The translations under genes were made by a program, and so were the position numbers. A DNA stretch of 64,000 bases from Cladochytrium replicatum (lineage: Eukaryota; Chytridiomycota; Chytridiomycetes; Cladochytriales; Cladochytriaceae). The stretch covers positions 599,001 through 663,000 of the forward strand of contig JAHLKD010000002.1 of the NCBI GenBank assembly GCA_025526935.1. The letters are read 5' to 3'. The first letter of the stretch is position 1, and every line of letters begins with the position of its first letter. The notes under the pieces were generated by a model. It made no database searches. It worked only from the letters and a program-made list of their open reading frames with translations, and had not been told where the DNA came from. Shown one piece after another: positions 58,111-64,000 of this stretch.

Positions 58111-60278
58111 AATTGGGTGTTGGATTCTGGGCATCTTGGATTCGGGTTTTCTTTATGTTTTTATGGACTTGCATGTATTCAGTTTTTTCTCTCCGTTGTG
58201 GGTTTTTCTGATTAGCATGTGAGGAGGTCGTGATATTGTTCCTTTTGGCTTCTTTCGGTGGCAGGCAACCTTGCAGCTCTCGGGTTATGTGGAAGGGGGA
58301 TTTGTTCCAGGCTAACCATTTCTTTTGAGATGTTGGATATGACTTTCATTGTTTGTGTGTCTGTTATCCATGCTGTTAGTAGTACATGAACTCAATGGCT
58401 CAAAGTGGCATAAAAAACGTCTCTGCAATATCCATGTGTCGGATGCGCATCCGTCCACTCATCCTGGCAGCTGGTTCCACGAGCCGTTAAATTCAGTTCA
58501 AGAAGCGTAGTCAATCACTTCCCGTCTCTGCGACATTCCGTAGTAACGGCAGTGGCCTTAATATGTGTCCGGTTTGTGAAGAGGAGACCCTCGCACCAAC
58601 GGATTTAGAGCCGCCTGCAGAGACATGCCCCGGTCTCTCTTCCCTCGAGGCTTTTGACCGGTTCCCTATAGACCACTGCTGCAAGGCTCGGCAATATGCA
58701 CAAGAGGCAAGATGAGCAATGATCAGATCCCCACCCAGCAAAGATGCCAGTGTAAGTCCCAATAATGATGGCCAAGTAGTAGAGGTTGTGCTATTCTTTG
58801 CTCTTCCCTTCCCTCTGGTGCGCTAAGTGCACACAGTGGTCTGTTTGTTGTTCTAGTCCTTCTGTTCCGTCTTAAACGCGATTCTACGCCGATGGTGGTC
58901 CTATTCCTGCAACCCCTGCCATCCTCAACATCATTGCCATAAATATTTGGCTTTGTTGTTCCCTCCTATCATCTTCGATCTTGCGTGACCAATCCCTCCC
59001 CTCTCGCTCCTGCCTTTCTCTCAACTCTCTCCACGATCGTTCTTCCATTGCCTTTCTCGGTCGCTTTGCAGTTCTCCATGTGCTGTAACAACATCCACAT
59101 TCCGCTGGGGTTGGATTTATCCATGCGGCCCTGGTCCTCAGCCTGATATGCCCGCTCTGCACGCTGGATCAATATGTTTTAAGCTGACTCAGAGTGGCAT
59201 GAGAGTGAAGAATCAGACAACAGGATGTCTGGCTTTGATATCTTCAACATCTTAATGTAATCCAGATTAACTTATTTGACCACTTACAGCGACTACCTGG
59301 GACAAAACCGTTGACCTTCGAACTTGATCGCATAACACTTTTTACGTTGATGCCGGAGAGCTGAAAGGCTGATTCTGAGATCGTGAAAGCAGCGAATATG
59401 CTTCATCAGCATCATCATCTCAACTCGTATTGCGGCCAATAAGGTGGTAGGTCCCAAGCAATTCCAGCTCAAATCCAGCGCTAACTCTGTTTCGCTGTGC
59501 TATGTCATCCAGGATTTGGCGATGACTGGAGTGGTGTTGTTTTAACTCGATCGGATGTCGTCTGATTTGAATATCGTTGCCTGGTTTTGTGATTTCGATA
59601 GAACTTTATCGAAAACTATACCAGACTGTTGTGAACTGGTAACATGGAGCACTGGGACTGCTATTCTCGTTGGAATGGAAACACTCTCTGGAATAGCTTG
59701 ACCATCTAGCGGTCTGGATGAAACCTTGGATAATCAAATTGTTTCCCGAGCTGGTGAAAGACAATTTGGCGAAGAATCCCCAGGTACGACCTTAGGACGT
59801 GCGCCATCGGAAGCAGCCATTGAATCTGATAACTTTTCTGGAAGTTTTGGGAAGGGCGGTGAGCAGGTTGAAGTGATTTTCCGGGAAGGTCTGTTCTCGA
59901 CTAACCGGCGTTCTGTTTGCATTTCTAGATTGGTAGTAGTAGTACTGATTGACTATACTTGACAGTTAAGGAAATAGTATAACTATAGGGAGGCCAACGA
60001 TCTAAACGATCAATCACAAAACCGGCGATCGGCAACACTTTGTGGGAGGGATGGATGAGTGTGAAACTCTCATTTTGGTGGTTTCCTTAAAAGAAACAGA
60101 ATACTTTGAGGACTTCCCTGATCGAGAACATTAAACTTTGAGTTGTTTTATTGAAAACCTTTCAAAAGTTCGAGAATCTCACAGGACGTTGAAGAAGGAT
60201 GGAACAAACATAAAAAAGGGTTTCAAAAGGTATGATGAAACGCTCTCATTAGAAAAGGTTTGATGAACTACAACAGCC
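58111..60278. other. Long region with mobile-element-like scraps and no supported host gene
   Basis: Holds the fragment at 58884-59162 described separately, a plus-strand stretch near 58560 reading NMCPVCEEETLAPTDL that could be a decayed zinc-binding motif, and frames up to 78 codons at 59726-59962. No continuous gene is seen. The segment is most likely old transposon sequence and spacer. Confidence 0.4.
58884..59162 (-). mobile_element. Possible transposon-derived coiled-coil fragment
   Basis: A leftward frame includes KRPRKAMEERSWRELRERQE, REGRDWSRKIEDDRREQQSQ and IFMAMMLRMAG: a highly charged helix followed by a Met-rich end. This resembles the C-terminal coiled coil of Myb/SANT-like proteins of DNA transposons. 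No DNA-binding domain or transposase is present next to it. The call rests on composition. Confidence 0.3.
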
Positions 60279-62047
60279 TCATTTGTTGGAACGAGTGACT
60301 CTCCCGGGAGATGACTTGATAGCAGCCGTCCCAGCAATTTTCTTAGCTTCTTTAACAAGTTGCTTCTGCTCCTTGCTCTGAGCTTGACCGCGGCGTTTTC
60401 CCGTGACAAACGAATCGTCCGCAAGCAACATGCTCTCGCCTTCAGCAGCAGCGCGTGCCATCGTTCCCATCCTCTTCATTTTGGGCCGGGGACTGTCCGT
60501 CTTTGGCTCATCTTCGGTGTCACTGGCTGATCGTGTACGTTTCTTGGATGGATCAGGCTTGGTCGGACTTGAAGGTAAGCTAACCGACTTCTTCTCCCCG
60601 GCTTTCATTTTCTTTCCGCTAGCGCTGATGCCGTCATTGTCTGTGCGTTTGCGTTTGTTGCCCTGAAGGTCTTCCGTAATGGCTGCGCGAGCCTTTGTGG
60701 CGGCCGAGCGGTGGCCCTCAGCGGTTAAACCAAGATTCTGTGCCTCGGCAACTGTAGCTGCCATAGTGCCCACTTTTTTCAGCTTTGCCGTTTTCGGGGT
60801 GGTCGGTGAGTCAGCAGGCTCCGATTTGTCTGCCTTGTCAGATTTCTGCTTGCGGGTGCTAGCCGTGCTATCCTTGATAGACTGCTTGGCTTTGGATGCA
60901 GCGGAACGCTCCAAAGAGTCGGTAACCAAGCCAAGACTCTGGGCCTCGGCAACAGTTGCGGCCATAGTTCCCTTCTTCTTGAGAGCCGCCTTCTTAGGTG
61001 CAGGCACTTCCTCTTCCTCAGATTCACCATCTTCTTGAGCATCACTACCAGAGAGTTCGCTTTTATCGTTTTCTTCATCCTCCTCCTCAGAAACTTCTTC
61101 TTTGTCCGAAGTTTTGGCAGGCTTAGTTGGCGTCGATGACTTTGATGGTTTGTTGGGGGTTTTCCTCTTGCTCGCACTGGCCTCTTTGATAGACTGTTTT
61201 GCTTTGGATGCAGCAGACCTTCCTCCGGAAACGGTTCCCATCCCAAGCGCCTCTGCCTCTGCAACGGTGGCAGCCATCGTCCCTTTCTTCTTCAACTTCG
61301 GAGTTGCCGGAATTTTTTCTTCCTCCTCCTCCTCTTCGGGATCAGCGTGTTCTTCAGCTTCCTCGTGCTCCTCTTCTTCAGCTGCGTCATCGTCCGCACT
61401 GCCATTCTTTGGCGCAAGCTTCTTCTTGGGAGTTGAATTAGTTGGAGTCTTTCGCTTACTAGCACTAGCATCCTTAATGGACTGCTTGGCCTTAGAAGCA
61501 GCCGATCGCCCAGTTTCCGCATCGTCCACAACAAGCCCCAATGCCTCCGCTTCAGCAACCGTGGCGGCCATCGTTCCCCGCTTCTTCAACTTCGCCTTTC
61601 CATCTTTTACAGGCTCTTCGTTATCGTCCGCTTCTTCTTCATTAGCTTCGGCAGTGTCATCTCCCTCCGGTTCATCAACCTGGCGAATAGAATCTAACTC
61701 CGTCAATTCAGAATCCTCTTCGTCAGGCTCCGGCTCGGAGGCTTTAAATCCAACTTTGCGCTTTCGAGTGGCAGAGTTCGCCTTCATGTTCTCGACCGCT
61801 TTTGTTTGGGCCTGGCGAGGGGACTGATCAGCCCTAACAAGTCCTAACTGAGACGCCTCTGCTACAGTAGCCGCCTAGCGCATTTAATCCAATCCATTAG
61901 ATGTCATATCAGACAGGTTTGACAGATATTGATCAGTAAGGGGTGTGACATTTGGGCTGGGAGGTGTCTCACCATAGTAGACTTGCGTGTGATCGAGGGT
62001 TTTGGGCTCGCCGTCTTAGGAGAGTCAGAGTTCTTGGCGCCAGACAT
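60279..62047 (-). CDS. Acidic/Lys-rich nuclear-type protein with six copies of a GTMAATVAEA repeat, novel
   Basis: Two exons, about 556 residues. Exon 1 starts MSGAKNSDSPKTASPKPSIT at 62047 and ends RKSTM; the intron (about 61876-61972) falls inside the first repeat, and exon 2 resumes AATVAEASQLGLVRADQ. Repeats of the form [LM]KK.GTMAATVAEA..LGLV recur at full-length residues near 23, 124, 223, 327, 394 and 495; the last is diverged (GTMARAAAEGESMLL). Copies 2 to 5 are followed, after a few residues, by RSAASKAKQSIKDASAS or a close variant. Between repeats lie Glu/Asp-rich runs and SKRKTP-type basic patches with probable nuclear signals (KRKRTD, KKRTRS). No known domain is recognised. Alternating acidic and basic segments suggest a chromatin or nucleolar protein; that is inference. 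Confidence 0.8.
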
Positions 62048-62317: not shown

Positions 62318-64000
62318 TCAAGCGAGTTTGTTAACGAAATTGGAGGGGAACAGGCCTTTCCTTCTCTTTCCATTTGTGACGACAAGCCCTTCCCACCACC
62401 TAGACAACAAATAGCAAGCATTTAGCCTTTCCACCTACTTTATTCATTACTCCGACGCACCCATCTTCATGCATAACCAAGACCGGTATAGTTTGTCCCT
62501 TGGCTATCGTCAGTTCTTCGTCGGCCTGCGCTTTGTAATCGTATAGCACCCGAACTTGTGCGACAACCACAGGGTTCGCTGGTATATCGTAGATATCGTA
62601 AGGCTCCGTTGTGTAGACATCCTCGGATTCTGATAGATGGTCGGGAACAGTGCCATTTCTGTTGAGACTCAACTGCTGAAAGCGCGTGCTGCCGTTCGTT
62701 GAAGGTGTGTCAGCAGGTTCCGATACACTTCCGGTGCGCAGATGAGAGGCGACTTTGGTGAGGCTACCTAGGGGTGTACTTGAGACCTTCTTCTCGAAGG
62801 AGGAGCGGACGGATGGAGCGGAAGATGGGGGATTGCTGGTTGGGACAAAGTCATTGTCTAAACTTTTGCTGGTGTAGGGAACATAAACCAAAGGAGCTGT
62901 GGAGTAAACGTCAGTTAGCACTAGCCATAGTTCATCTAAAGATACTCACCCGGTAGTTCAGTTCCAGTTGATCGTGTATCAATGAACAGCTGAATGTCCT
63001 TATCTATCTCAACAGACTCCAGTGACACTCGTACACGTTCACAACACTGTTGTTTAAAGTATAAGTTTTAAATTGATCAAATCAATTCAAAAAGGATAAT
63101 TACTTCATCATCCGCAACGCAAGCACTCGAAATCATGTTGGTGAAGTTCCAGATGAATTCCCGCATATTCTCGAGCCGATTCTCCTCCAATTTTTGGGCC
63201 ACCTTTGTTTTGAGCTTTTATCAGATCGTGAATATTCCTTATTTTTTGCAATTATTTACCGTGCAAGCTGCCCGGAAATTCGATTCCCACTTTTTCGAGA
63301 GTTCACTAAATTTCTCTATGCCGGTCTTGTATTCACCATCTGCTGACTTGGCTGCAGCAACAGTTTTTTCGTGTCTGGCTCTCAACTTGGGATAAAATGT
63401 GAGTTGATTCACTGATGTATAATTAGAATCGATGGTCGACCTTGTCCGCCTCTTTCGGTTGCAATGTGGGTCTCATCTGCACCAACAACCCATCCGCCTC
63501 CGCGCATTTCGCTTCGTATCTTTCCTTGGACTTTGAAACGGCAGCCATTTGTGCAGATTTTGCTTTAAGGTCTTTATCCAAAATAGCAGCGTGCTATGAC
63601 CAAAACACTGTGAGCCTCCGAACGTTTACCATTGTTGGTTTCAGTCCATTACGTTTTTTCTCGTAGAGCTCTGGTGTGTGATGAAGTCAGAAACGGGTTT
63701 CTCCAATTGTGTTCTCAGCTCTGTTGCAAGGTTCAGGTGCGCGCGCGCGGAGTTCTCCATCTCTGTTCTCAGTACTTCAAGAGAGTCCTTCATAGTGCTT
63801 CAGAATCCATCAGACTCGGAATTTGGAAGTACGCTTGTTGTGTTCCCACCCCATTTCCTCTTTTGTCACGAATGCCTTTGCAACCTTTGCCAATCGCTTC
63901 CCATAATCCTCTTCTATTGAAGCTCGCTCTTTGACGAGCGTCAGTAGCTCGTTGCATAAGTGCTTTCCCTGCCTCAACCGTCCCCACACAACTTCGAGTC
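62318..64000 (-). CDS. F-BAR and SH3 domain protein (cytokinesis/endocytosis type), 5' end outside the window
   Basis: A membrane-bending adaptor of the fungal Hof1/Imp2 or Bzz1-like group. Leftward from the right edge it reads VVWGRLRQGKHLCNELLTLV, KERASIEEDYGKRLAKVAKA and FVTKEEMGWEHNKRTS (F-BAR start). More F-BAR helices follow (LLDKDLKAKSAQMAAVSKSK, KLRARHEKTVAAAKSADGEY, KTGIEKFSELSKKWESNFRA, MISSACVADDE), then RVRVSLESVEIDKDIQLFID. A Ser/Thr/Pro-rich linker leads to an SH3 domain, VAQVRVLYDYKAQADEELTI, HEDG joined over an intron to WWEGLVVTNGKRRKGLFPSN and FVNKLA, with a stop at 62318-62320. The last intron (about 62400-62460) restores the SH3 ALYDY...WW...P.N..VNY pattern. Only the first residues of the F-BAR domain are missing. 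Confidence 0.88.

Follow-up and report, generated by a model that had tools for sequence, protein, structure and literature searches.

A minus-strand fungal gene encodes six copies of a conserved TMAATVAEA motif set among charge-segregated linkers

Nopp140 and Srp40 are rich in Lys, Ala, Ser, Pro and Glu. In Ki-67, alternating charge blocks within disordered repeats drive phase separation, the average block measuring about 30-40 aa, and in a group of proteins that includes Nopp140 and treacle mitotic phosphorylation instead reduces the charge blocks (PMC9106583). Here we set beside these systems a gene from a window of 64,000 nucleotides (C2:599001-663000) in the 50.5 Mb, 198-contig genome of Cladochytrium replicatum. 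Positions without a contig name are those of the window, and all features of the gene lie on its minus strand.

Translation and splice-site reading give a two-exon gene at 60279-62047 that encodes a protein of 556 aa plus a stop codon. Exon 1 (61973..62047) codes for residues 1-25, ends in ...STM within the first copy of the motif and is matched in a second copy of the gene on contig C11. It is followed by a phase 0 intron of 98 bp (61875..61972; GTGAGA...CTAG), identical in position and length in the C11 copy, and by exon 2 (60279..61874), a 531-aa open frame that supplies residues 26-556 and the stop and shows a third-position substitution pattern. The original prediction had described a two-exon gene of about 556 residues with six motif copies and an intron between TM and AATVAEA of copy 1. 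Translation and splice reading bear this out, and the intron is kept in the C11 gene; of the predicted ends, 61876-61972, the upper one is correct and the lower one is off by a single base (61875). Differences between the window gene and the C11 gene are distributed over codon positions 1, 2 and 3 as 48/44/218, and the other five registers carry 6 to 46 stops per copy in the two genes. The third-position bias and the stops in the other registers together identify the sense frame as the coding frame. Ala, Lys, Glu and Ser account for 51% of the window protein.

TM has its T at residues 24, 126, 224, 328, 395 and 496, so that successive motifs are spaced by 102, 98, 104, 67 and 101 residues. Translation and comparison with C11 delimit each copy. 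Copy 1 (61836..61993, a span that includes the intron) reads ITRKSTM before the intron and AATVAEASQLGLV after it. Copies 2 to 5 read LKKRGTMAATVAEAEALGLV (61530..61589), LKKKGTMAATVAEAEALGMG (61236..61295), LKKKGTMAATVAEAQSLGLV (60924..60983) and LKKVGTMAATVAEAQNLGLT (60723..60782), and copy 6, which has diverged, reads MKRMGTMARAAAEGESMLLA (60420..60479). TMAATVAEA is exact in five of the six, copy 6 having TMARAAAEG. The best 9-mer is thus present five times; in shuffles of the window protein, any 9-mer occurred twice in 1 of 2000. Within the motif, [KR]xG[ST] is retained in copies 2-6 (KRGT, KKGT, KKGT, KVGT and RMGT), and copy 1 has RKST. A second module follows the motif. In unit 2 it reads RSAASKAKQSIKDASASKRK (61449..61508; translation and AF2 models) and is a predicted basic helix; unit 3 carries it at 61161..61220 (translation), unit 4 at 60849..60908 and unit 5, in the diverged form RSAATKARAAITEDLQGNKR, at 60651..60710 (both from translation and the exon-2 AF2 model). 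Four copies had been said to precede RSAASKAKQSIKDASAS or a close variant, which holds for copies 2-4 and applies only loosely to copy 5 (RSAATKARAAITEDLQG).

A degenerate DNA pattern of the motif has eight zero-mismatch sites, four in the window gene and four in the second gene (C11:426390-428203). The product of the latter is 571 aa long and 83% identical to the window protein, and its 69-bp exon 1 (C11:428203-428135) precedes the 98-bp intron, positioned as in the window gene. Queries of 45, 20 and 70 aa against the same genome match only these two genes, so there is no third family member at that sensitivity, at which the 20-aa query misses copies 1 and 6 in both genes. Inside unit 3 the C11 gene has one additional 17-residue tandem repeat, LGMGSVSGGRSAASKAK; this duplication indicates that the unit structure of the array is still changing.

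The C11 gene sits in a syntenic duplicate of the window region. We compared C11:382001-471900 with the window and 40 kb of C2 beyond it. Gapped blocks of 67-85% nucleotide identity link C11 to window 1-17 kb (in inverted orientation) and 45-64 kb, and extend over much of the 23 kb of C2 that follow the window. Window 17-45 kb has no match within C11:382001-471900, and its partner could sit below C11:382001. The dS of the repeat gene, 0.89, falls inside the range of seven neighbouring pairs (0.52-1.27); eight pairs were computed, and '45.3k' (dS 0.115, ratio 0.855) was excluded as a likely wrong-strand reading. The gene pair is probably one of many duplicates that stem from duplication of the whole genome, from a hybrid or from two diverged nuclei.

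The surroundings of the gene provided several further observations. Window 59205-60017 may hold a remnant of the next gene downstream, the minus-strand frames there being only 61-72 aa long; its C11 counterpart is a 242-aa open frame (C11:425959-425234). Window 55-59 kb is unmatched in C11:382001-471900 and by eye resembles mobile-element debris. Upstream on the same strand, window 62403-62945 contains an exon with the start of an SH3 domain (PF00018, E 2.4e-6). This neighbour is also present on C11, with a dN/dS of 0.10 across 152 codons, and may presumably be a Bzz1-type protein. The genome as a whole looks widely duplicated or hybrid, Nop14 and SRP40_C being on two contigs each. Eight of the nine listed 5.8S rRNA matches are over the cut-off (on C55, C82, C116, C68, C150, C12, C104 and C69); these eight are not all alike, and some resemble fragments within unrelated sequence. 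The Fungal_trans domain matches this genome 24 times and none of 14 control genomes, which, like the ITS/5.8S region as we read it, indicates a fungus.

We used the two genes to assess selection along the protein. Between them, whole-protein dN/dS is 0.104 over 553 aligned codons (the counts 553, 460, 313 and 230 include the stop codon pair). The six 20-residue motif cores have a dN/dS of 0.014 (dS 0.79; 118 of 120 residues identical) and the module after the motif 0.027 (dS 1.08; 112 of 120), compared to 0.173 for the linkers (dS 0.87; 230 of 313 aligned positions identical). Identity in cores and linkers differs markedly (Fisher test, p = 3.5e-11). Since dS is similar throughout (0.79-1.08), a mutational cold spot does not account for the conserved motif. 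In the window protein, the 20-residue cores of the five exact copies differ pairwise at 72-98% of synonymous sites with the nine-residue peptide kept, which argues for old, retained copies and against recent duplication or gene conversion. Copies 1-4 have protein-identical cores in the two genes, and the cores of copies 5 and 6 each differ by one residue, so the six-unit layout predates the gene duplication. That the motif is under selection while the linkers vary more had been proposed from the window gene and is strongly supported by the dN/dS contrast and the Fisher test. Motif and linkers obey different rules, and the feature is real, conserved and unusual in that respect.

That the linkers vary freely, as was also proposed, is too strong a statement, because charge class tends to be held. 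None of the 93 residue differences between the two copies is a charge reversal and 27 change the charge class. The summed charge change of 27 compares to a mean of 46 when partner residues are permuted, and was reached in 0 of 5000 permutations. Random nonsynonymous mutation of linker codons would be expected to produce 46% class changes and 6.8% reversals (binomial p 0.0007 and 0.0015, in a test that assumes independent single changes and applies the linker expectation to all 93 differences). Part of this charge conservation is due to ordinary conservative substitution. The window protein has 103 K/R and 101 D/E, a net charge of +2, and its charges are strongly segregated (z = 10.2 to 12.5, reached in 0 of 500 shuffles at any of the three window sizes used); the C11 copy gives z = 9.5 to 12.1. 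Acidic tails follow copies 1-3 only (net -14, -10 and -8), the tails of copies 4-6 being net positive. There are 13 SP/TP sites in the window protein, five of which fit [ST]Px[KR], and nine and five, respectively, in the C11 copy. Read by eye, the window protein also has the nuclear-import-like basic clusters KRKR, KKRTR and RKRK.

To characterize the predicted structure, we modelled the units and exon 2 with AF2. An alignment of five of the six window units, leaving out unit 1, which spans the intron, gave helices at residues 10-19 (MAATVAEAEA) and 33-47 (SAASKAKQSIKDASA), with a mean pLDDT of 61.5 and a pTM of 0.26. Exon 2 alone, modelled without an alignment, gave a mean pLDDT of 48.5 and a pTM of 0.19, and 328 of its 531 residues were under pLDDT 50. 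This second model gives the motif a helix in copies 1, 4 and 5 and none in copies 2, 3 and 6, and the second module a helix in units 1, 2, 4 and 5; another lies close to the C-terminus, and unit 3 has no helix, only coil. Given the low AF2 confidence, disorder and helices are both to be read as suggestions, and the models suggest a disordered protein with short helices. The short binding helix of the original prediction finds a counterpart, at low confidence, in the helix predicted at the motif by the unit model and in those three copies of the exon-2 model. The hydrophobic moment of the motif is small (0.04-0.14 for copies 1-5), unlike that of a classic amphipathic docking helix, so that a partner would have to recognize a small face rich in Ala, unless the motif binds in some other form. 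Directly ahead of helix 1 there is a Thr, and two residues past it a Gly; both occupy positions typical of helix-capping residues and would probably cap the helix. The Gly is found in copies 1-5 and is lacking in copy 6.

Because the diverged second copy keeps the motif almost unchanged, the protein looks like a real multi-site docking scaffold for a putative partner. We put the chances that it is an intrinsically disordered multivalent scaffold, most likely a nuclear one (chromatin or nucleolus), at about even. Its composition, with basic clusters, SP/TP sites and alternating charge blocks, would be consistent with a chromatin or nucleolar location. In the unit plan that we propose (about 100 residues, once 67), a basic lead LKKxG would be followed by the short helix TMAATVAEAxxLG, then by another helix, basic in character (RSAASKAKQSIKDASAS in units 2-4), and a basic tail that is often TP/SP-rich, and an acidic Glu/Asp block would close the units after copies 1-3. 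The motif helix may serve as a specific docking motif for one partner, with six copies giving avidity. The alternating positive and negative blocks, with the basic helix and tails, might act as charge-driven stickers, by which the molecules and nucleic acid would be held in a condensate-like phase. Phosphorylation at the SP/TP sites could tune such a phase; from the number of these sites, and of those fitting [ST]Px[KR], cell-cycle kinases could tune the scaffold. Ki-67 is the precedent for this proposed mode of action, to which the fungal protein would add its own helical docking motif. Only tentatively do we go further and propose that [LMI][KT][KR]x[GS]TMAATVAEAxxLGLV, with its basic partner helix, is an undescribed short docking repeat of one early-diverging lineage of fungi and the six-fold 'sticker' of a nuclear charge-block condensate, in which specific helix docking and encoded charge blocks are both kept in two diverged copies.

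If the motif binds one partner, the gene pair would be a clean natural case in which evolution separates specific stickers from charge-patterned spacers, the stickers being fixed in sequence and the spacers mainly in charge. It also provides a new motif to seek in fungal proteomes. Should the motif instead belong to a known family, this would be an ordinary disordered nuclear protein.

Several other explanations bear on this reading. The protein could be a chromatin factor that compacts DNA or binds histones, its motif contacting a histone or the nucleosome instead of serving as a scaffold dock. Its basic helix and (S/T)PKK-like tails would then lie on DNA and its acidic blocks on histones, as in linker-histone-like or chaperone proteins, and the Ala/Lys-rich RSAASKAKQSIK modules, the TPKK, TPNK, TPTK and SPTK sites and the long acidic runs after copies 1-3 would all fit. 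However, no linker-histone, SAP, HMG or other DNA-binding Pfam model scored above cut-off, the Linker_histone profile (globular winged-helix) finding no match at E up to 10, and aromatic anchors are few, with Trp and Tyr absent and Phe at 0.4%. We consider this explanation unlikely.

Searches for relatives bear on a second alternative. Neither exon 2, nor nine of the units, nor the two full proteins matched any of 24736 Pfam models above cut-off in searches extended to E 10; the unit alignment comprised nine of the 12 units of both genes, C11 units 1, 3 and 6 having been left out. The sub-threshold fragments (HTH_35 and MarR_2, about 20-30 residues with E 0.45-0.81, and DUF348 and DUF1824) were taken as chance. 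PDB sequences contained no relative, and the matches to glutaminyl-tRNA synthetases (E at least 0.38) and to MS2 or related coat proteins (E at least 0.45) were likewise taken as chance. Scans of viral contigs returned 67, 600 and 0 pattern matches with no relative among them, the 600-match scan being only weakly informative, since acidic runs made up the majority of its six automatic patterns. The 243 pattern matches in prokaryote genomes also included no relative. TMAATVAEA, GTMAATVAE, MAATVAEA, KGTMAATV, RSAASKAKQ and SAASKAKQSI were not found in the literature searched, and the literature searches found nothing on the repeat gene. The motif therefore matches nothing in the Pfam, PDB, prokaryotic or viral sets, and its description as apparently new stands across these and the literature; with eukaryotic proteomes outside the search, that description is partly tested. 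This scope leaves some room for a divergent member of a family described in other eukaryotes, hidden by its disorder from the profiles used, and disordered repeat proteins diverge fast. Yet nothing rose above chance in the Pfam models or PDB sequences and the peptides were absent from the literature searched, and we regard such a relationship as quite unlikely.

A cytoplasmic docking scaffold or microtubule-associated protein is improbable. The KxG(S/T) of the motif, retained as [KR]xG[ST] in copies 2-6, presumably resembles the KXGS sites of tau-type repeats, but the tau/MAP tubulin-binding repeat profile gave no match at E up to 10, the basic clusters look suited to nuclear import, and the acidic surface of a microtubule should repel long acidic linkers. 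Lastly, the idea of a functionless frame, spurious or of low complexity, for which the strongly biased composition, a 262-aa open antisense frame opposite the gene and an antisense register with a dN/dS of 0.143 might speak, is highly improbable in view of the whole-protein dN/dS, the conserved intron, the third-position bias and the 6 and 9 stops which that antisense register has over the aligned length.

We return to the multivalent, probably nuclear scaffold and its comparison with known systems. In the unit model, the two short predicted helices with a loop are reminiscent of SAP and related DNA-binding motifs of the helix-loop-helix kind, and 'TVAE...LGL' resembles the start of a SAP motif. 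Compared by eye with SAP, however, helix 1 seems to fall short by about one turn and helix 2 to be without the hydrophobic spacing. The SAP profile found no match at E up to 10 in any of the nine scanned units (of 12) or in both full proteins. We treat the SAP and tau KXGS resemblances as presumptive leads, supported by no profile.

The likeness to Nopp140/Srp40 lies in the alternation of acidic and basic blocks, which is evident from the segregation of charge in the window protein (z = 10.2 to 12.5), the disorder being taken from low-confidence models. SRP40_C (PF05022) had no match at E up to 10 in either copy. That domain is encoded on C51 and C36 (53.7 and 50.4 bits, both above cut-off), elsewhere in the genome, so the repeat protein is not the Nopp140/Srp40 orthologue, and we rejected this assignment.

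With multivalent short-linear-motif scaffolds the protein shares a short conserved motif that recurs along a chain which is probably disordered; it differs from them in the TMAATVAEA motif itself, which is absent from everything searched here. A disordered charge-block scaffold with repeated motifs is a kind of protein already known, and the motif is new to everything searched. Ki-67 has an FHA domain, for which neither copy has a Pfam match at E up to 10. What the fungal protein has in common with human Ki-67 (PMC9106583) is an extended array of repeats, in the fungal protein probably disordered, in which positive blocks alternate with negative ones and CDK-type sites occur. In Ki-67, however, the blocks arise by mitotic phosphorylation, whereas those of the fungal protein are encoded in its sequence and accompanied by a strict short motif under selection.
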